A stretch of 64,000 nt of DNA, taken from Candidatus Tepidiaquacella proteinivora (GTDB taxonomy: Bacteria; Bacteroidota; Ignavibacteria; Tepidaquicellales; Tepidaquicellaceae). The first letter of the stretch is position 1. Each line of letters begins with the position of its first letter. The stretch is from contig CP054675.1 in assembly GCA_013348845.1 (NCBI GenBank), forward strand, positions 1,497,501-1,561,500. The letters are read 5' to 3'. The notes beneath the pieces are model-generated. The model had not been told where the DNA came from. It saw nothing but the letters and a program-made list of their open reading frames with translations, and did not search any database. The position numbers and the translations under genes were made by a program. Shown piece by piece: positions 29,369 to 38,957 of the stretch.

Positions 29369-30649
29369 TTATGAATTCACAGTTAGATTATAAACATTTC
29401 TTATTAATTTCTCATAACTTTGAATTAAATCCACCTGCCTTCTTTCCATAACAATTTTTGCGGTTTGCAAAGCTTCATCTATTTTATATCTTGAGGGTTG
29501 TTTACCCTGAATGTACCATGTAAAGGAATCAATAAATTTATCGGGAAAACCTCCTCCTGCAATCAAAGCAAAAATGCCAATTATACTACCTGTATTAAGC
29601 ATAGTATTAATTCCTGTTTTTGTATGGTCTCCAATAATACTTCCTAAAAAGGTTAAACCTGTTTGATGTTGAATTGAATTTTTATTGAACCTTGTTTTTA
29701 TAAGTGAATAATTATTTTTCAGGTTACTTGTTACAGTATCTGCACCAAGGTTTACAAATTCAGAAATATAGGAATTTCCAATAAATCCGTCGTGTTGTTT
29801 ATTTACAAATGAATGGAAAATTGTACCAGAAACTTCCCCTGCAATACGGGAATTATATCCAATAGAGACAGGACCATAGAGTTTAGTTCCTGCTTTAATA
29901 ATCGATTTTTTTCCAATATAGACTGGTCCTTTTATATATGTAAAGGGTTCTATCAAAACTTCATCATTGATGAAAATTTTTCCATCTGAAGCATCAAAAA
30001 CAGTATAAGGCATTACTATTGACGAGTGAGAAATATTTACTAATTCAGGATTAATTATTTTATAATCGGTCTGGTTTTTATTATTTAATTTAAACTCCAG
30101 CAATTCTAAATCATAATTCAATATAGAGTTGAAATACTTAATAATATCCCAGGAATAATTTATTATATAGAAATCTTTCTCAGGATAAAACTTAAAAGTT
30201 TCGTTATCTAAAATTTTAAGTTTTAATTGATTAACAATTTCAGAAAAAGGAATAAATTCACATTTATTATCTGGCTTGATTAAAGGATAGATATCTCTAA
30301 TATTTTTATTAGATAATTTAACTGCAAGAACAATATTGTCATATTTCCATATAAAGCTATCGTTAAAATTTATTAAATAATCGAGCAGGTTTTTCTTAAA
30401 TACTATTCTACCATTCAGAAAAAGTGAATCGTTTTTTTCGAAGTTATTGGTTTTATTGCCTTTAATTTCAGTGATATAATCAGAGAGAATTTTTCTGCAA
30501 TGGTAGAAGATTTTAAATTTTTCCTTTAAAATTAAACCAATTCTTTCGGCATTAGTAAATATCCCTGTTCTTATATCATAAGTAGGTTTTAATAAAGTAA
30601 GTGGGGATAAATTATCATAAAATTCATCTTCGAAAATAATAATATTCAT
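29369..30649 (-). CDS. GlmU-family putative sugar nucleotidyltransferase
   Basis: A 426-residue protein of the GlmU-like putative nucleotidyltransferase family. The N-terminal half (NIIIFEDEFYDNLSPLTLLKPTYDIR split by motif) lacks the usual GxGTRM activation loop. The C-terminal half is a left-handed beta-helix of hexapeptide repeats (about 215-380, such as GPVSIGYNSRIAGEVSGT), the trimeric acyltransferase fold. The substrate is unknown; a cell-envelope sugar nucleotide is likely. It starts 16 bases after the rpmE terminator. Confidence 0.65.
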   Translation of the reverse strand: MNIIIFEDEFYDNLSPLTLLKPTYDIRTGIFTNAERIGLILKEKFKIFYHCRKILSDYITEIKGNKTNNFEKNDSLFLNGRIVFKKNLLDYLINFNDSFIWKYDNIVLAVKLSNKNIRDIYPLIKPDNKCEFIPFSEIVNQLKLKILDNETFKFYPEKDFYIINYSWDIIKYFNSILNYDLELLEFKLNNKNQTDYKIINPELVNISHSSIVMPYTVFDASDGKIFINDEVLIEPFTYIKGPVYIGKKSIIKAGTKLYGPVSIGYNSRIAGEVSGTIFHSFVNKQHDGFIGNSYISEFVNLGADTVTSNLKNNYSLIKTRFNKNSIQHQTGLTFLGSIIGDHTKTGINTMLNTGSIIGIFALIAGGGFPDKFIDSFTWYIQGKQPSRYKIDEALQTAKIVMERRQVDLIQSYEKLIRNVYNLTVNS

Positions 30650-31169: not shown

Positions 31170-32957
31170 ATGAAGAAATTCACAATTATTTTTGTTTCAA
31201 TTATATTATCTTCTATGGCTCTTGCAAATTTAAAGGGGGTAGAATTTATAGAACCAAAACCAGGAGCTAAATATATAAATCTGGAAACAACAATAATAAT
31301 AAAACCAGAAGCGAAATTTATGAACTTAATAAATCCAGCTACTTTTAATATTGAAGTAAGCGGAACAAAATCAGGATATCACACGGGAAAGATAATTTTA
31401 TCAGATGACGGAACGACGATAATATTTAAACCTGACAAATTTTTTTCCCTTGGCGAAAAAGTAACAGTAAATTTTAAGATTCCTACACAACAAAAATCAA
31501 TTTATGAATTCTATACCAAAGAAAAAGAACCTCCATATAGAAAATATGAAAGTTTCAAGAAATTAATGGAAGAAGCAGAAAGACATCAGCTATATGAAGC
31601 GATGTTTAATTTCAGAGACTCTTTACCAAGCACTTATCCACAAATAGTTGTAGAACAGTTTGGACCTACAGCTCCAGGGAAATTATTTGTTGCAAATTTC
31701 TCATATCCCGGAATTTGCGATGCTTATATGAGCATACTTCCTAATTCTCCAAATCCATTTTTTTATCGTTACTCTCCAAATAACATCTATGACTTCAAAG
31801 TTCAAAAATCCAATGGAAAAATAACTTATTGTGATTTTGTTAAGCATAAATTTTATATGCTTGATACAAATTATGTTATTATCGATAGTTTTTATACAGG
31901 AAATGGTTATACAACAGATGAACATGATTTGCAAATATTAGACAATGGCCATTATTTAATACTTGCTTATGACCCACAAATTGTAAATATGAGTGAAATC
32001 TATCCTGGGGGTGATACTGCAGCATTAGTAATAGGATTAATTGTGCAGGAGTTGGATAATAATAAAAATGTAGTTTTCCAATGGCGAAGTTGGGATTATT
32101 TCAGTATTTTAGATGCATCAAATATTAATTTTACTGCCAGCGAAATAGATTATGTACATGGGAATGCCGTTGAAAAGGATATTGATGGCAATTTGATGAT
32201 TTCCAGCAGAAATATGGATGAAATAACAAAAATCAATAGGCAAAACGGAAATATTATCTGGCGACTTGGCGGTAAAAAGAATCAATTTACTTTTATCAAT
32301 GATACTCTTGGATTTAATCGCCAACATGATATAAGAAGAGTGTATAACGGAAATATAACATTATATGATAATGGTAACTTTCATTCTCCTCCATTTTCAA
32401 GAGCAGTAGAATATCAAATAAACGAAACAGCAAAAACAGTTACTCTTGTTTGGGAATACAGAAATAATCCCCGAATCTATGCATTTGCAATGGGTAATGT
32501 TCAAAGATTACCAAATGGTAATACCTTAATTGGTTGAGGTTATACAAACAATGCATTATCAGAAGTTACCCCTCAGGGTACAAAAGTGATGCATGTAAAA
32601 TTCCCCTTATTTGTTCAAACATACAGAGCGTACAGATTTCCCTGGAAAGAAGAAATTCCTACTATATTACCAAATCCCTCAAACAATTTACCTGAAAGAT
32701 ATAATTTATATCAGAATTATCCAAACCCATTTAATCCTATTACAAACATATCATTTGATGTTCCAAAAGATGAATTCGTTAGTTTAAAAATATATGATAT
32801 ACTTGGAAAAGAGGTAGCAGTATTAGTAAATGAACAAATTAAGGCAGGAAATTATAAATTACAGTTTGATGGTTCAAAATTATCAAGCGGAACATATTTC
32901 TATTCACTTGAGACTTCATCTTTCAGAGAAGTAAAAAGAATGACATTAATCAAGTAG
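31170..32957 (+). pseudogene. Secreted arylsulfotransferase-like protein interrupted by an in-frame TGA
   Basis: One reading frame of 595 codons is broken only by TGA at 32535-32537 (codon 456). Before it are a signal peptide, an SbsA-type Ig-like domain (about 25-115), and an arylsulfotransferase (ASST)-type propeller with NIIWRLGGKKNQF and RLPNGNTLIG. After it the same frame reads GYTNNALSEVTPQG and then a full T9SS sorting domain (QNYPNPFNPITNI to RMTLIK) ending at 32957. The TGA falls where homologues would be expected to have Trp, so a TGG-to-TGA change explains it. Without readthrough the product lacks its propeller end and sorting signal. The intact remainder suggests a recent lesion, an error, or readthrough. 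Confidence 0.75.
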
Positions 32958-33103: not shown

Positions 33104-33222
33104 CAAAATATTGAATGTTATCTAACCAGGGATATTAGTTTTATATACTTATCTTTTCTTTTTTTACTGACTTTAAATGCCATTTTGAATTAGTTAATTT
33201 TTTAAAAATTTAATTGAGAGTT

Positions 33223-35463
33223 ATGAAGTTTGCATTTATTAGCACTTATCCACCGCAAAAGTGTGGTATAGGAACCTTCACGAATAACCTTATTGATTCA
33301 ATTGCAGAAAATTTCGGATATAAAGATTTAATACCAAACCTTTATGTGGTTGCAATTTGCGATAAAGAACCCCCATATGACTATCCGCCGGAGGTCTCTT
33401 TCGTTGTAAATCAGAATATTCAAAGAGATTATGTTGCAGCCGCAAAGTACATCAATTATAATAAAGTAGATGTTTGTATTCTTGAACATGAATTTGGAAT
33501 TTTCGGAGGTGAAAACGGAGTATATATACTATCCCTAATTAGCAGACTTGAGGTCCCATTAATTGTAACTTTTCATACAGTGATCAGAGAACCTACTTAT
33601 ATACAAAAGGTGATTGTACAGGAATTAAGTCAAAGAGCAGAAAAGGTTGTGGTTATGAGTCAAAAAGCAGTAAAATTTTTACTTGATGTCTATAACCTTG
33701 ATGAGAAAAAAATTGAAGTTATTGAACATGGAGTACCAGTCGGAAAAGTATTTCATAGAGATGCAGTAAGAGAAAAATTTAACTTTACAAATAAAATAGT
33801 TTTACTAACTTTTGGTCTTTTAAGTCGTAACAAAGGTATTGAAACAGTAATCAAGGCTCTTCCAAAAGTAGTAGAAAAACATAAAAATTTACTATACATA
33901 GTTTTAGGGAACACTCACCCAAAAATTGTAAGTAAATATGGAGAAGAATATAGAGAATATTTATTAAGACTTGTAAAGGAATATGGAATTGAGAATTATG
34001 TTTATTTTTATAAAAATTTCCTACCTGAAGATTTGTTAATGGAATATCTATATGCAACAGATATATATATAACTCCCTACTTGAATGAAGCACAAATAAC
34101 AAGTGGAACTCTTTCTTATGCAATAGGAGCAGGGGCAGCGGTAATATCAACACCATATTGGCATGCACAGGAATTGCTTGCAGAAGGACGCGGAATTTTA
34201 TTTGATTTTAATAATCATGAACAACTTGCAGATATATTAATAGATTTACTTGGGAATCCTGAAAAAATCGAGCAGTTGAGAGAAGCGGCAACAAAATATG
34301 GAAACAATCTTAAATGGCCTAAAATAGGTGCAAAATACATCAAAGTAGCAAAATCTGCGATAAGCAGTTTCTCTTATGTTGAAAAACAAAAGAAAACTAT
34401 ACTTGATCCGTATTTATTACCCGATATTACACTTGCTCATATAATAAGACTAACAGATGATACAGGAATTGTTCAACATGCGAAATATGGAATTCCAAAT
34501 TTAAAAGAGGGATATTGTCTTGATGATAATTCAAGAGCACTTTTAATGACGGCAATAGCGCACCAAAAGAACCGTTCGAAAGATGCAATTGACTTAATGC
34601 CAATATATTTAAGTTTTATTAATTATATGCAAAATGAAGATGGTTCATTCAGGAATTTTTTAAGTTTCAACAGAAATTATCTCGATAAGGTTGGCTCAGA
34701 AGATTGTTTCGGAAGAACTATGTGGACATTGGGGTTTTTAATTTGCAAATTTCCAAAAGATTCTTATCATCAATTAGCACTCGATATATTTAATAAATCT
34801 TTAAGATATGTAAGAAATCTAAAACATATCAGAGGTTATGCAAATACAATAATCGGACTTGCACATTATTTAAGAAGGTTTCCAGAAGATGCAAATGTTA
34901 AGGATTTAACTTACGAATTGACTAATAAATTAATTAATGCTTATAAAAAAAAAAGAACTGATGACTGGAAATGGTTTGAAAATATACTAACTTATGACAA
35001 TGCTATATTACCACTTTCTTTATTATATGCTTCGGAAATTTTCATATCAGAAGAAATTATGAAAATTGCATTGGAAAGCTGTTCTTTTCTTGAAAGTATT
35101 ACAATGAAAAACGATTACTTAAAACCAGTTGGGAGTAAAGGTTGGTATCCTAAAGGTGGTAAATGTGCTGATTTTGCTCAACAATCTATTGATGTAATGG
35201 GAATGGTACTATTATATTTTAAAGCATATCAATCAACAAGAGACAAAAAGTATCTTGATAAAATGTTTACTTCTTATTTGTGGTATATGGGTAAAAATGA
35301 ATTAAATCTACCGGTTTATGATTTTGAATCAGGTGGATGTTATGATGGTCTTGAAGAATATGGTCTAAACCAGAATCAAGGAGCAGAAAGTACAATAGCA
35401 TACCTGATTGCCCATCTTACTGTATTAAACGCCTTTGAATTAGAATATGAATATGAAAAATAA
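33223..35463 (+). CDS. Two-domain GT4 glycosyltransferase with C-terminal helical domain
   Basis: A 746-residue cytoplasmic enzyme. The N-terminal part (about 1-380) is a GT-B fold family 4 glycosyltransferase, with FISTYPPQKCGIGTFT at the start and a C-terminal half containing the nucleotide-sugar-binding GTLSYAIGAGAAVIS region. The rest (about 390-746) is an alpha-helical region with DDNSRALLMTAI and aromatic-rich segments that resembles an alpha/alpha-barrel sugar-acting domain. A TTG at 33214 is the longest start; ATG 33223 (MKFAFIST) fits the family and has a GAGAG site. It heads a run with GH130 and a second GT4 gene, which suggests mannose-containing glycan metabolism. Confidence 0.75.
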   Translation: MKFAFISTYPPQKCGIGTFTNNLIDSIAENFGYKDLIPNLYVVAICDKEPPYDYPPEVSFVVNQNIQRDYVAAAKYINYNKVDVCILEHEFGIFGGENGVYILSLISRLEVPLIVTFHTVIREPTYIQKVIVQELSQRAEKVVVMSQKAVKFLLDVYNLDEKKIEVIEHGVPVGKVFHRDAVREKFNFTNKIVLLTFGLLSRNKGIETVIKALPKVVEKHKNLLYIVLGNTHPKIVSKYGEEYREYLLRLVKEYGIENYVYFYKNFLPEDLLMEYLYATDIYITPYLNEAQITSGTLSYAIGAGAAVISTPYWHAQELLAEGRGILFDFNNHEQLADILIDLLGNPEKIEQLREAATKYGNNLKWPKIGAKYIKVAKSAISSFSYVEKQKKTILDPYLLPDITLAHIIRLTDDTGIVQHAKYGIPNLKEGYCLDDNSRALLMTAIAHQKNRSKDAIDLMPIYLSFINYMQNEDGSFRNFLSFNRNYLDKVGSEDCFGRTMWTLGFLICKFPKDSYHQLALDIFNKSLRYVRNLKHIRGYANTIIGLAHYLRRFPEDANVKDLTYELTNKLINAYKKKRTDDWKWFENILTYDNAILPLSLLYASEIFISEEIMKIALESCSFLESITMKNDYLKPVGSKGWYPKGGKCADFAQQSIDVMGMVLLYFKAYQSTRDKKYLDKMFTSYLWYMGKNELNLPVYDFESGGCYDGLEEYGLNQNQGAESTIAYLIAHLTVLNAFELEYEYEK

Positions 35464-35490
35464 TTTTTTCTTATTTTCCATTATTAAATT

Positions 35491-36420
35491 ATGTCAATAA
35501 TTAAACGCTATAAAAATAACCCAATCCTTAGAAAAGACAATGTTCCTTATCCGGTAGCAACTATTCACAATGCAGGAGCAGTAAAATTTAATAATGAATA
35601 TATATTGCTCTTTCGTTCACATTTATTAAACGGGAGAAGTATAATAGGTATTGCAAAAAGTAATGATGGATTTAATTTCAAAGTATCTGCTGAACCTTTT
35701 ATTACCCCTGCAGAAGAAGGTGATTTTAAGATATATGAGGAATATGGAGTTGAAGACCCAAGAATTACCTTTATAGATGGAGAGTATTTAATTACATACA
35801 GCGCTTATTCCCGATTCGGAGTAAGAATAGTTCTTGCTAAAACAATTGATTTTAAGAATATTGAAAGAGTAGCATTAATAACAGAGGCAGATTATAGAAA
35901 TGTGGTAATTTTTCCGGAAAAGATTAATGGATTATATGTTCGTCTTGATAGACCACATACAGGAATAATACCATGGTCGATCTGGATATCATATTCTCCA
36001 GATTTAATTCACTGGGGAAATTCAAAAATCATAATTATGCCAACGAAGTATCATTGGGATGAAATGAAAATAGGTCCCGGAGCTCCTCCCATAAAGACGG
36101 ATAGAGGTTGGTTAAATATATATCACGGGGTATTTTCAACAATGGATGGTAGCATATATAGATTAGGAGTTGCATTACTTGATATAAAAGACCCATCAAA
36201 AGTTTTAGGGGTGGCAGATGAATGGATATTACAACCAGAAGAATTATATGAAACTACAGGATATGTGCACAATGTAGTTTTTACCTGTGGTGCGATTCCG
36301 GAAGTTGATGGAACGGTTAAAATTTATTGGGGAGGTGCAGACAGTGTAATTTGTGTTGGCGAAGCCAACATAAAAGAATTAGTTGACTTATGTTTATACA
36401 AATCAAGAAACCCGCTTTAA
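35491..36420 (+). CDS. GH130 family mannoside phosphorylase/hydrolase (short form)
   Basis: A 309-residue five-bladed propeller enzyme of glycoside hydrolase family 130. The catalytic acid is expected at Asp89 in GVEDPRIT. The family's KIGPGAPP and NIYHGV segments contain the basic residues that bind phosphate in characterised mannosyl phosphorylases, but I cannot confirm phosphorylase over hydrolase activity. No signal peptide, so it acts in the cytoplasm. It lies 28 bases after the two-domain GT4 gene and 58 bases before the next GT4. Confidence 0.85.
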   Translation: MSIIKRYKNNPILRKDNVPYPVATIHNAGAVKFNNEYILLFRSHLLNGRSIIGIAKSNDGFNFKVSAEPFITPAEEGDFKIYEEYGVEDPRITFIDGEYLITYSAYSRFGVRIVLAKTIDFKNIERVALITEADYRNVVIFPEKINGLYVRLDRPHTGIIPWSIWISYSPDLIHWGNSKIIIMPTKYHWDEMKIGPGAPPIKTDRGWLNIYHGVFSTMDGSIYRLGVALLDIKDPSKVLGVADEWILQPEELYETTGYVHNVVFTCGAIPEVDGTVKIYWGGADSVICVGEANIKELVDLCLYKSRNPL

Positions 36421-36478
36421 GTTAAGATTAATCATTTTATAAAAACAATTTATATTAAATAAATTTAATTTCAGAATA

Positions 36479-37492
36479 ATGAAAGTTGCAATTTTATCAC
36501 CTGCTGTATGGAGAACTCCACCGAGAAAATATGGTCCATGGGAACAGGTAGCTTACAATATTACTGAGGGATTAGTTGAGAAAGGTATGGATGTTACTTT
36601 ATTTGCAACAGGGGATTCAATAACAAGTGCAAAACTTGAATATATAATAAAAGAACCCTACGGGGAAAATCCCCAGTTAGATGCAAAAGTATGTGAGTGT
36701 ATGCACATAAGTTACTTAATGGAAAATGCTCAAAAGTTTGATATTATTCATAATAATTATGACTTTTTACCACTAACATACTCCCGACTTATAAAGACAC
36801 CAATGGTGACAACAATACATGGTTTTTCATCCCCAAAAATTATTCCGGTATATAAAAGATATAATGACATAAACTATTATGTTTCAATAAGCAATTCTGA
36901 CAGGAGCAGTGAATTAAAATATATTGCAACTGTGTATAACGGTGTAAATGAAAAAGATTTCACCTTCAGAAAAAACCATGGTGATTATCTTTTATTCTTC
37001 GGGAGAATTCATCATGAAAAAGGTACTTTTGAATGTATAAAAATAGCACGAGAATATGGAATGAAATTGATAATATCTGGATTGATTCAGGACGAAAAAT
37101 ATTTTAATGAAAAAGTAAAACCGTATATCGATAATAATAATATAATTTTTTTAGGAAATTCAGGTCCGGAAGAAAGGAATAAATTATTAGGTGGAGCGTA
37201 TGCTTTATTACACCCTATTAATTTTGAGGAACCATTTGGGTTAAGTGTAGTTGAAGCATTTTTTTGTGGAACACCAGTAGTAGCATTTAACAGGGGGGCA
37301 ATGCCTGAAATAATTTTAAATGGTAAAACCGGATTTTTAGTAAACACTATTACTGAAGCTGTAAATTCATTAGATAAAATCAAAACCTTAAACAGAAAAG
37401 AATGTAGAATATGGGCTGAAAGCAAATTTACAAGAATGAAAATGGTAGAGGATTATATTGAAGTTTATAAGAAAATATTAAAATATAAATAA
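36479..37492 (+). CDS. GT4 glycosyltransferase
   Basis: A 337-residue family 4 glycosyltransferase with a GT-B fold: an N-terminal acceptor domain starting VAILSPAVWRTPPRKYGPWE, and a C-terminal donor domain with FFGRIHHEKGT and the E-x7-E motif in FGLSVVEAFFCGTPVVAF. Length is normal for the family. Donor and acceptor are unknown; the GH130 neighbours on both sides make GDP-mannose a reasonable guess. It ends one base before the convergent GH130 gene. Confidence 0.8.
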   Translation: MKVAILSPAVWRTPPRKYGPWEQVAYNITEGLVEKGMDVTLFATGDSITSAKLEYIIKEPYGENPQLDAKVCECMHISYLMENAQKFDIIHNNYDFLPLTYSRLIKTPMVTTIHGFSSPKIIPVYKRYNDINYYVSISNSDRSSELKYIATVYNGVNEKDFTFRKNHGDYLLFFGRIHHEKGTFECIKIAREYGMKLIISGLIQDEKYFNEKVKPYIDNNNIIFLGNSGPEERNKLLGGAYALLHPINFEEPFGLSVVEAFFCGTPVVAFNRGAMPEIILNGKTGFLVNTITEAVNSLDKIKTLNRKECRIWAESKFTRMKMVEDYIEVYKKILKYK

Positions 37493-37493
37493 T

Positions 37494-38957
37494 TTATTGC
37501 TCACGCAGTTTTGATAAAAGAAGATTTAAATCCACAGTAGCAAAACTTGAAGCATAATCTGCAATGGCATAGGGAATAACTAATTTGCCATTATGCACTA
37601 TTGAGCCACAGGAATAAACGACATTTGGTACATACCCTTCCCTTTCATCTTCCTTAGGTACAATTAAAGGTTCTTTTAATTCACCGATTACTTTTGTAGG
37701 ATCATTTAAATCAAGAAGTATTACACCAATTGAATATTTTCTCATTTGACCAACACCGTGAGTAATAACAATCCAACCTTCCGGTGTTTCAATAGGAGAG
37801 CCACAGTTACCGACCTGAATTAATTCCCAATCGAATTTGGGTTCCCGTAAAAGTTTTGCGGATTCCCAAATATTAATATTATCAGAAAACATAATATAAT
37901 GATTAATACCATCAATACGAGAAAGCATTGCATACTTTCCATTTATTTTTCTGGGGAAAAGCGCAAAATTTTTATCCTTTATACATTCACCATGTAAAGG
38001 TAGATTTTTAAATTGGTAAAAATCCTTTGTCTTTAATAATTTGGGAAGTATAGTAAATCCATCGAATGCGGTATAGGTTGCATAATAGATACTTTCATCA
38101 TTATCCTCAGTGAATTTCACAAAACGAGCATCTTCAATTCCATTTTTTTCTGTTCTTGAAACCGGAAAAATTACTCTTTCAGATATATCGGTATCTTTTG
38201 AAAAGGAAATCTCGTAATGTGATTTTGCGAGCCACATCATTTGATTTAAAGTTTTACTCTGGTCAAGATTTAATCCTTCTGATAATTTCGCTCTGTCAAC
38301 TGCTTCTTTCAGTTGACTATAATAAAACTCATCTTTAAGTTGACGCAAAATTTTAGAGGAAATATCATTTACTATCTCATGTTCTTTTAAAATTTTTATA
38401 AACTCTTCCTTATCATACACATGTCCTTTGATAATTTCAGCCTCGCTAACGTGATATCCCTGAGGGTCGAAAATTAAATTGCAATCCTTATCCAAAATTC
38501 CACTTCTAAAAACAATAGAAGAAATATGACTTTCCCCTGTTGCTCTAAAACTTACAATAAATCTTTTCTGTTCATATTCAAGTCCGCTCTGGTCCGGATG
38601 TTCAACCATAGAAGGATTAAATAAAGCAGCTGACTCTATAGAATACTCCATTGTAAAATAAGAGCCAATCAGAAGTTTTTTAGTATTTGAAATCTTTTTA
38701 TTATTATTCCCTGTCCCATTTATATAACGAAAAGCTTTGTTGAAATTATTATGAAAAATTTTTGTAATATTTCTGTGCCTTTTAGCAAATTCTCTTAATA
38801 CTAAATTAAGCGATCTTTCCGCTTCCTTTTCACTCATCTTTATAATTTTTTCAATTATCGCTTTTGCAATTGATTCACTATGATCAAAAAACCTTGTAAT
38901 TACTCTTTTTGGGTCAGGATATATCCTTGCTGCTTTGCGGTCAACTGTAATTCTCAT
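37494..38957 (-). CDS. GH130 family enzyme (long form)
   Basis: A 487-residue GH130 protein. Residues about 1-90 are an N-terminal helical extension absent from the short form. The catalytic Asp is expected at 276 in NGIEDARF. The conserved GNCGSPIETPEGW and ITHGVG segments follow. There is no signal peptide, so it is cytoplasmic. It converges on the second GT4 gene with a one-base gap, placing two GH130 and two GT4 enzymes side by side. The larger size may reflect a different mannoside substrate or oligomer interface. Confidence 0.82.
   Translation of the reverse strand: MRITVDRKAARIYPDPKRVITRFFDHSESIAKAIIEKIIKMSEKEAERSLNLVLREFAKRHRNITKIFHNNFNKAFRYINGTGNNNKKISNTKKLLIGSYFTMEYSIESAALFNPSMVEHPDQSGLEYEQKRFIVSFRATGESHISSIVFRSGILDKDCNLIFDPQGYHVSEAEIIKGHVYDKEEFIKILKEHEIVNDISSKILRQLKDEFYYSQLKEAVDRAKLSEGLNLDQSKTLNQMMWLAKSHYEISFSKDTDISERVIFPVSRTEKNGIEDARFVKFTEDNDESIYYATYTAFDGFTILPKLLKTKDFYQFKNLPLHGECIKDKNFALFPRKINGKYAMLSRIDGINHYIMFSDNINIWESAKLLREPKFDWELIQVGNCGSPIETPEGWIVITHGVGQMRKYSIGVILLDLNDPTKVIGELKEPLIVPKEDEREGYVPNVVYSCGSIVHNGKLVIPYAIADYASSFATVDLNLLLSKLREQ

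Follow-up and report, generated by a model that had tools for sequence, protein, structure and literature searches.

The four-gene block

We analysed a window of 64,000 nucleotides (positions 1497501-1561500) from the single-contig, 2.40 Mb genome of Candidatus Tepidiaquacella proteinivora (Ignavibacteria), in which two members of glycosyltransferase family GT4 (GT4a and GT4b) and two members of glycoside hydrolase family GH130 (GH130a and GH130b) are encoded in one block. The genes, in window coordinates, are as follows.

33223-35463, + strand: GT4a, 746 amino acids (aa), two domains (open reading frame; Pfam PF00534/PF13439; AlphaFold2)
35491-36420, + strand: GH130a, 309 aa (open reading frame; PF04041, E 2.6e-60)
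36479-37492, + strand: GT4b, 337 aa (open reading frame; PF00534)
37494-38957, - strand: GH130b, 487 aa, long and convergent (open reading frame; PF04041, E 1.1e-31)

The start of GT4a was taken as the ATG at 33223, with a TTG found upstream at 33214. GT4a and GH130a are separated by 27 bp, GH130a and GT4b by 58 bp, and GT4b and GH130b, on opposite strands, by 1 bp. Pfam identified GT4-type domains in GT4a and GT4b and PF04041 in GH130a and GH130b, the only two GH130 genes in the whole genome. Hydropathy of the first 40 residues was 0.58-0.88 for all four proteins, far below the 2.5-2.8 of two secreted neighbours used as controls, and so indicated no signal peptide or transmembrane helix in any of them. 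Open reading frames, Pfam and hydropathy agreed with the initial annotation, which had described at 33223-38957 a two-domain GT4, a GH130, a second GT4 and a convergent long GH130, all lacking a signal peptide. Promoter and terminator scans returned shuffle-level results and were uninformative, and a defence-system search gave no match.

Linkage of the block genes across genomes

Linkage was surveyed in 198 genomes of the phylum, with evidence from outside the phylum consisting of single loci. GT4a was present in 37 genomes and GH130 in at least 77, with a GH130 gene within 10 kb of GT4a at 29 or more of the 38 GT4a loci. Orthologues of GT4b (identity of at least 55%) were found in 15 genomes from nine genera, and all 15 were located 21-438 bp from a GH130 match. 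GT4a was also present in each of these 15 genomes (hypergeometric 7e-13; 1e-7 with one genome per genus). Because nine genera are represented, shared ancestry alone is an unlikely explanation for the pairing of GT4b with GH130. The tie is also independent of GT4a, since five genomes of one genus keep GT4b beside GH130s with GT4a elsewhere. The four-gene order was preserved in L003, L004, L005 and G180, the first of these being the closest named relative in the genome collection, an Ignavibacteria metagenome-assembled genome (MAG) with 91% identity over GT4a. GT4a homologues with GH130 neighbours occurred in Ignavibacteria, Lutibacter, Acidobacteria, one Nanoarchaeota MAG and others, although some MAG taxon labels may be mis-binned. 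Linkage of the block genes is far above chance and the block is a real functional module; together with the lack of signal peptides, this upholds the earlier view of the four genes as one cytoplasmic module.

Additional genes accompany the block in some genomes. A ManC-like (mannose-1-phosphate guanylyltransferase-like) gene adjoins a split GT4a in Herbivorax (L017). A PIG-L deacetylase (recognised by eye in L012), another GT4 and a GH100/GDE-like protein lie beside GT4a/GH130 in the Nanoarchaeota MAG (L012, 4078-14406) and in a Bacteroidota locus (L069, 2744-11725), the former cluster also containing a protein with a mannose-6-phosphate isomerase domain. Single-frame proteins with a pair of GH130 domains, about 724-737 aa long, adjoin GT4b in one genus of the phylum (L109:10567-12738 and the G003 region in L108).

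The two GH130 enzymes

The PF04041 match of GH130a extends over positions 27-318 of the 320 in the profile with the catalytic Asp conserved, placing the protein in GH130, and its best matches in the PDB were 1vkd (TM1225) and Teth514_1788. Phosphate-site columns were read from an alignment with solved enzymes, in which we take the phosphate-binding residues to be R150, R168 and K212 in Uhgb_MP numbering. GH130a has R, N, R and K at these columns, the basic residues R, R and K being kept in 8/8 members of its clade, and it looks like a beta-mannoside phosphorylase by this prediction. Its first column is an Arg, as in TM1225 (1vkd), and not the Lys of beta-1,2 enzymes.

GH130b has K, N/G, R and Q at the same columns and, reading K, R and Q, does not carry the three basic residues of a phosphorylase. 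It belongs to a clade of 26 sequences on a long stem, with 100% support in the Shimodaira-Hasegawa-like approximate likelihood ratio test (SH-aLRT), and all four of the tree's characterised or solved sequences fall outside it. Gln replaces K212 in 25 of the 26, and the Lutibacter sequence has Lys. In GH130 hydrolases of the BT3780 type, loss of the basic phosphate residues, with carboxylates in their place, is expected (PMC4599007), and R and K were both lost in the secreted controls (L093 and L094). A beta-1,2-mannosidase of this type was rejected for GH130b, which keeps R168, has Gln and not Glu at 212 and has no signal peptide. Judged by these residues, GH130b fits neither the canonical phosphorylases nor the BT3780-type hydrolases. 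The expectation that the GH130s act on beta-mannosides by phosphorolysis is therefore supported at residue level for GH130a, in which the residues are kept, and not for GH130b, whose altered phosphate site also makes it uncertain that two GH130s mobilise a glycan here.

The AlphaFold2 model of GH130b (mean predicted local distance difference test score, pLDDT, 82.8) consisted of the propeller with two helical additions:

38658-38957, - strand: N-terminal helical extension, residues 1-100 (AlphaFold2 helices within 28-100)
38208-38411, - strand: helical insert separating the first propeller strands from the remainder, residues ~183-250 (AlphaFold2 secondary structure)

Its best structural relatives were Teth514_1788 and other GH130 phosphorylases. 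The only Leishmania chain listed in the structural comparison, 2b4w, ranked 38. The first-column Lys of GH130b is common to Teth514_1788, the other Thermoanaerobacter enzyme and Lin0857, all of them beta-1,2 enzymes, and probably corresponds to Lys199, the beta-1,2 determinant of BT3780.

GT4a and its C-terminal domain

Two domains were resolved in GT4a:

residues 1-386: N-terminal GT-B/GT4 fold (AlphaFold2 model, Pfam)
34420-35451, + strand: YPO2471-like (alpha/alpha)6 domain, residues ~400-743 (profile and structural match to PDB 7TEM)

The AlphaFold2 model had a mean pLDDT of 84.7 and a predicted template modelling score (pTM) of 0.54, and because of the latter the packing of the domains is uncertain. 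Residues 1-384 adopt a GT-B fold near MshA, PimB', HepE and sucrose-phosphate synthase in structure comparison. Fold and Pfam place this domain in GT4 and the THP...YR signature and the Lys (37/37) are retained, but the donor Arg is replaced by L/M/I/F and the second Glu of the EX7E motif by S, A or another residue in 37/37 sequences. This double loss was unexpected, and it leaves the donor of GT4a unclear.

Structure prediction of the C-terminal part, suggested in the initial annotation, gave a helical (alpha/alpha)6 domain resembling 7TEM. No significant Pfam family was found for this domain, yet it matched YPO2471 (7TEM) both by profile (E 6.9e-23 over 435-743) and by structure (Z 38.5, root-mean-square deviation 2.7, 334 residues), with a weaker structural match to cellobiose 2-epimerases (Z about 31). 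The domain had been put forward as undescribed, which stands for its function and not for its structure, given the solved homologue. It is a discrete unit, as shown by L017:9989-12183 and L105:6246-8588, where GT4a is split into adjacent genes for the GT4 part and the YPO2471-like part. Cellobiose 2-epimerases use histidines for catalysis. No conserved His was found in the homologue alignment of the domain, whose conserved motifs (DDNxRAL, SEDxxGR, DDWKWFEN, GGCxDG, NQGAEST) are acidic and aromatic. Together these features point away from epimerisation and towards a binding or glycosidase-like role. A cellobiose/mannobiose 2-epimerase, having only the fold in common with it, was rejected.

Secreted stand-alone homologues of YPO2471 were also detected, one of them matching 7TEM at E 2e-113. 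Their loci (L075, L076, L085, L086, L101, L103 and L110, not all genes being present at every locus) carry relatives of GH130a and GH130b beside a sugar ATP-binding cassette (ABC) importer, and some of them add a GH2 with mannosidase Ig domains. In other genomes these families therefore take part in uptake, and such clusters tie them to extracellular beta-mannosides too. The genome under study encodes no other YPO2471 homologue and no PF22666 GH2.

GT4b and donor specificity

GT4b served as an internal control for the motif loss in GT4a, since both its EX7E motif (EEPFGLSVVEA) and its donor R..K motif (GRIHHEKG) are intact; with PF00534, these assign it to GT4. Its closest solved relative was the glucosylsucrose synthase TeGSS (PDB 7FG9; E 5e-71), followed by tetrahydrobiopterin glucosyltransferases. 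TeGSS is a retaining UDP-glucose:sucrose alpha-1,2-glucosyltransferase in which Tyr18, Arg179, Lys184 and Glu265 lie around UDP (PMC9909042), and all four residues are identical in GT4b by alignment. As GT4b resembles UDP-glucose enzymes and GT4a has no canonical donor residues, use of GDP-mannose by the GT4s is unsupported at the level of these motifs.

Stereochemistry and the favoured explanation

GT4 enzymes are retaining, and GH130 enzymes are inverting and act on beta-mannosides. Both mechanisms are stated for relatives of the block proteins, inversion for GH130 (PMC4264767) and retention for TeGSS (PMC9909042). Because GT4 retains and GH130 inverts, the GT4 products would be alpha-linked and would not be the beta-mannosidic substrate of GH130; the beta-mannosyl bond must come from GH130 working in reverse with alpha-mannose-1-phosphate (Man-1-P) or from another enzyme. 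The initial proposal that the GT4s build a beta-mannan that the GH130s break is therefore rejected on stereochemistry as the main model, and the proximity of GT4b to the UDP-glucose enzyme TeGSS also speaks against it. The genome contains a ManC-type gene (L021) for GDP-mannose supply. It also has a standard glycogen set of two GT5 glycogen synthases and a GT35 (glycogen phosphorylase-family) gene, and storage can thus be explained without a mannan reserve.

A mixed-glycan model fits these constraints best, since beta bonds need GH130 in reverse or another enzyme. We tentatively favour, at somewhat less than even confidence, a block that makes and turns over a soluble mixed alpha-hexosyl/beta-mannosyl oligosaccharide in the cytoplasm. 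This would carry beta-mannosyl residues on an alpha-linked hexosyl core and could act as a carbohydrate or phosphate-energy buffer or as a compatible solute. GT4b, as a retaining enzyme of the glucosylsucrose-synthase type, would build the alpha-linked part, and GH130a would attach or remove beta-mannose in reversible exchange with Man-1-P, which ManC would join to GDP-mannose. GT4a would join a divergent GT4 domain to an (alpha/alpha)6 domain of the YPO2471 type, the latter likely binding or trimming the same glycan, and GH130b would be a second, atypical beta-mannoside enzyme. In favour of this model are the GT4a-GH130 and GT4b-GH130 linkage, the absence of signal peptides, the phosphorylase residues of GH130a, the TeGSS residues shared by GT4b, the mannose-related genes near the block in L017 and L012, and the sister clusters in which GH130a and GH130b relatives occur with a secreted YPO2471 homologue and an importer.

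Several points weigh against this explanation. The altered phosphate site of GH130b leaves its chemistry open, and GT4a may be catalytically inactive or have an unusual donor. GT4b orthologues are only moderately similar to TeGSS, and donors switch easily within GT4. The GH2 enzyme of the sister clusters has no equivalog-level substrate assignment, and the module could be purely catabolic. We infer the product, donor and acceptor, like the reactions and the physiological role, from gene identities, folds, linkage and residues kept or lost, which are what the analysis shows.

Alternative explanations

The best-surviving alternative is salvage, in which beta-mannooligosaccharides are imported and undergo phosphorolysis by the GH130s, and the resulting Man-1-P feeds GDP-mannose for another glycan, hence the GT4 link, as proposed for Thermoanaerobacter. 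Consistent with it are the related clusters, in which a secreted YPO2471 homologue accompanies a sugar ABC importer and sometimes a GH2, and the Teth514 cluster, which joins GH130, ManC and GT4 (PMC4264767). However, no importer or secreted glycosidase is adjacent to the block in the window, the genome has neither of the stand-alone YPO2471 and PF22666 GH2 partners, and the GT4b-GH130 tie in 15/15 genomes is tighter than a shared Man-1-P pool needs. We consider salvage unlikely.

A bacterial mannogen, in which a beta-mannan homopolymer is built up and drawn on inside the cell as a reserve by the four enzymes, with beta bonds formed by reverse GH130 from Man-1-P and a GT4 that only primes, appears improbable. 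It would accord with the cytoplasmic GH130 pair and the GDP-mannose supply, with the synthesis of 1,2-beta-oligomannan from Man-1-P by Teth514_1788/1789 in vitro (PMC4264767), and with the Lys of beta-1,2 enzymes in GH130b and many relatives. It is opposed by GT4 stereochemistry, the likeness of GT4b to UDP-glucose enzymes, the glycogen synthase and phosphorylase genes, and the Arg of GH130a at the beta-1,2 marker column. The Leishmania polymer, moreover, is turned over by GT108 and not by GT4 and GH130 (PMC8950772).

Assembly of an envelope or secreted glycan by the GT4s, with the GH130s trimming or editing a precursor, would suit a family that often makes surface glycans, and weak NCBIfam matches included many envelope glycosyltransferases; it is similarly improbable, as neither the block nor the genes conserved with it included a recognisable flippase, polymerase or lipid-carrier transferase, and the block proteins have no membrane segments. 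Least probable is a diffusible BshA/MshA-type glycosylated small molecule from which GH130 takes off a mannosyl cap, for although the GT4s have MshA, BshA and tetrahydrobiopterin glucosyltransferase among their nearest structures and a PIG-L deacetylase and a GT4 accompany the block in L069 and L012, the block in the window has no PIG-L, which among the loci inspected was recognised in those two alone.

Comparison with known systems

GH130 together with GT4 and ManC is already known from Thermoanaerobacter, where the Teth514_1786-1789 cluster encodes two GH130 beta-1,2-mannoside phosphorylases, ManC and a GT4 (PMC4264767). Both systems have two cytoplasmic GH130s beside a GT4 and mannose-1-phosphate chemistry, predicted in the case of the block, but no two-domain GT4a or member of the long GH130b clade is reported there, and ManC and an importer are part of that cluster and not of this block, the role proposed there being GDP-mannose salvage. 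Leishmania mannogen, the analogy drawn in the initial annotation, involves beta-propeller enzymes of the GH130/GT108 type acting on cytoplasmic beta-mannosides. The analogy fails on one point, because turnover in Leishmania is by GT108 enzymes (MTPs) that are both transferase and phosphorylase, with no GT4 described (PMC8950772).

Among single proteins, YPO2471 of Yersinia pestis (7TEM) is homologous to the C-terminal domain of GT4a but is a stand-alone exported protein, whereas in GT4a the domain stays in the cytoplasm as part of a GT4 fusion. TeGSS (7FG9), the nearest solved relative of GT4b with key residues aligned, has no described GH130 partner, and its sucrose acceptor is not established for GT4b. 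Cellobiose 2-epimerase (AGE fold) shares the (alpha/alpha)6 fold of the GT4a C-terminal domain, in which its catalytic histidines have no conserved counterpart.

A literature search, with most subscription papers outside its reach, found no description of the GT4-YPO2471 fusion, the GH130b clade or the tight GT4b pairing, and no paper on mannogen in bacteria, on a GH130 pathway in Ignavibacteria, or on YPO2471 or 7TEM.

Neighbouring genes

Two further genes were noted in the window:

29369-30649, - strand: sugar nucleotidyltransferase (NTP_transf_4) that carries hexapeptide repeats and lies 2.5 kb away from the block
31170-32957, + strand: arylsulfotransferase-like gene with a C-terminal tail of the type IX secretion system (T9SS) type; one in-frame TGA at 32535-32537, the frame being open on either side

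Significance

Three uncharacterised items, namely the fold family of YPO2471/7TEM, the long GH130b clade with its altered phosphate site and a GT4 group without canonical donor residues, are placed by the linkage in a pathway context that can be tested. At its widest, the finding would mean that an intracellular oligosaccharide cycle, so far unrecognised, is widespread in bacteria (and archaea). A mixed alpha/beta reserve or solute containing mannose would then be made and mobilised by two GH130s, a GT4 and a GT4-YPO2471 fusion acting with a non-canonical donor, and GH130b would catalyse a new GH130 reaction; this full extent is unlikely. Should the role prove catabolic, the module would still identify the substrate of a structurally solved domain that lacks an assigned function. 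With an intracellular mannoside as the product, bacteria would possess a pathway to a reserve or solute that can in principle be compared with the mannogen of Leishmania.

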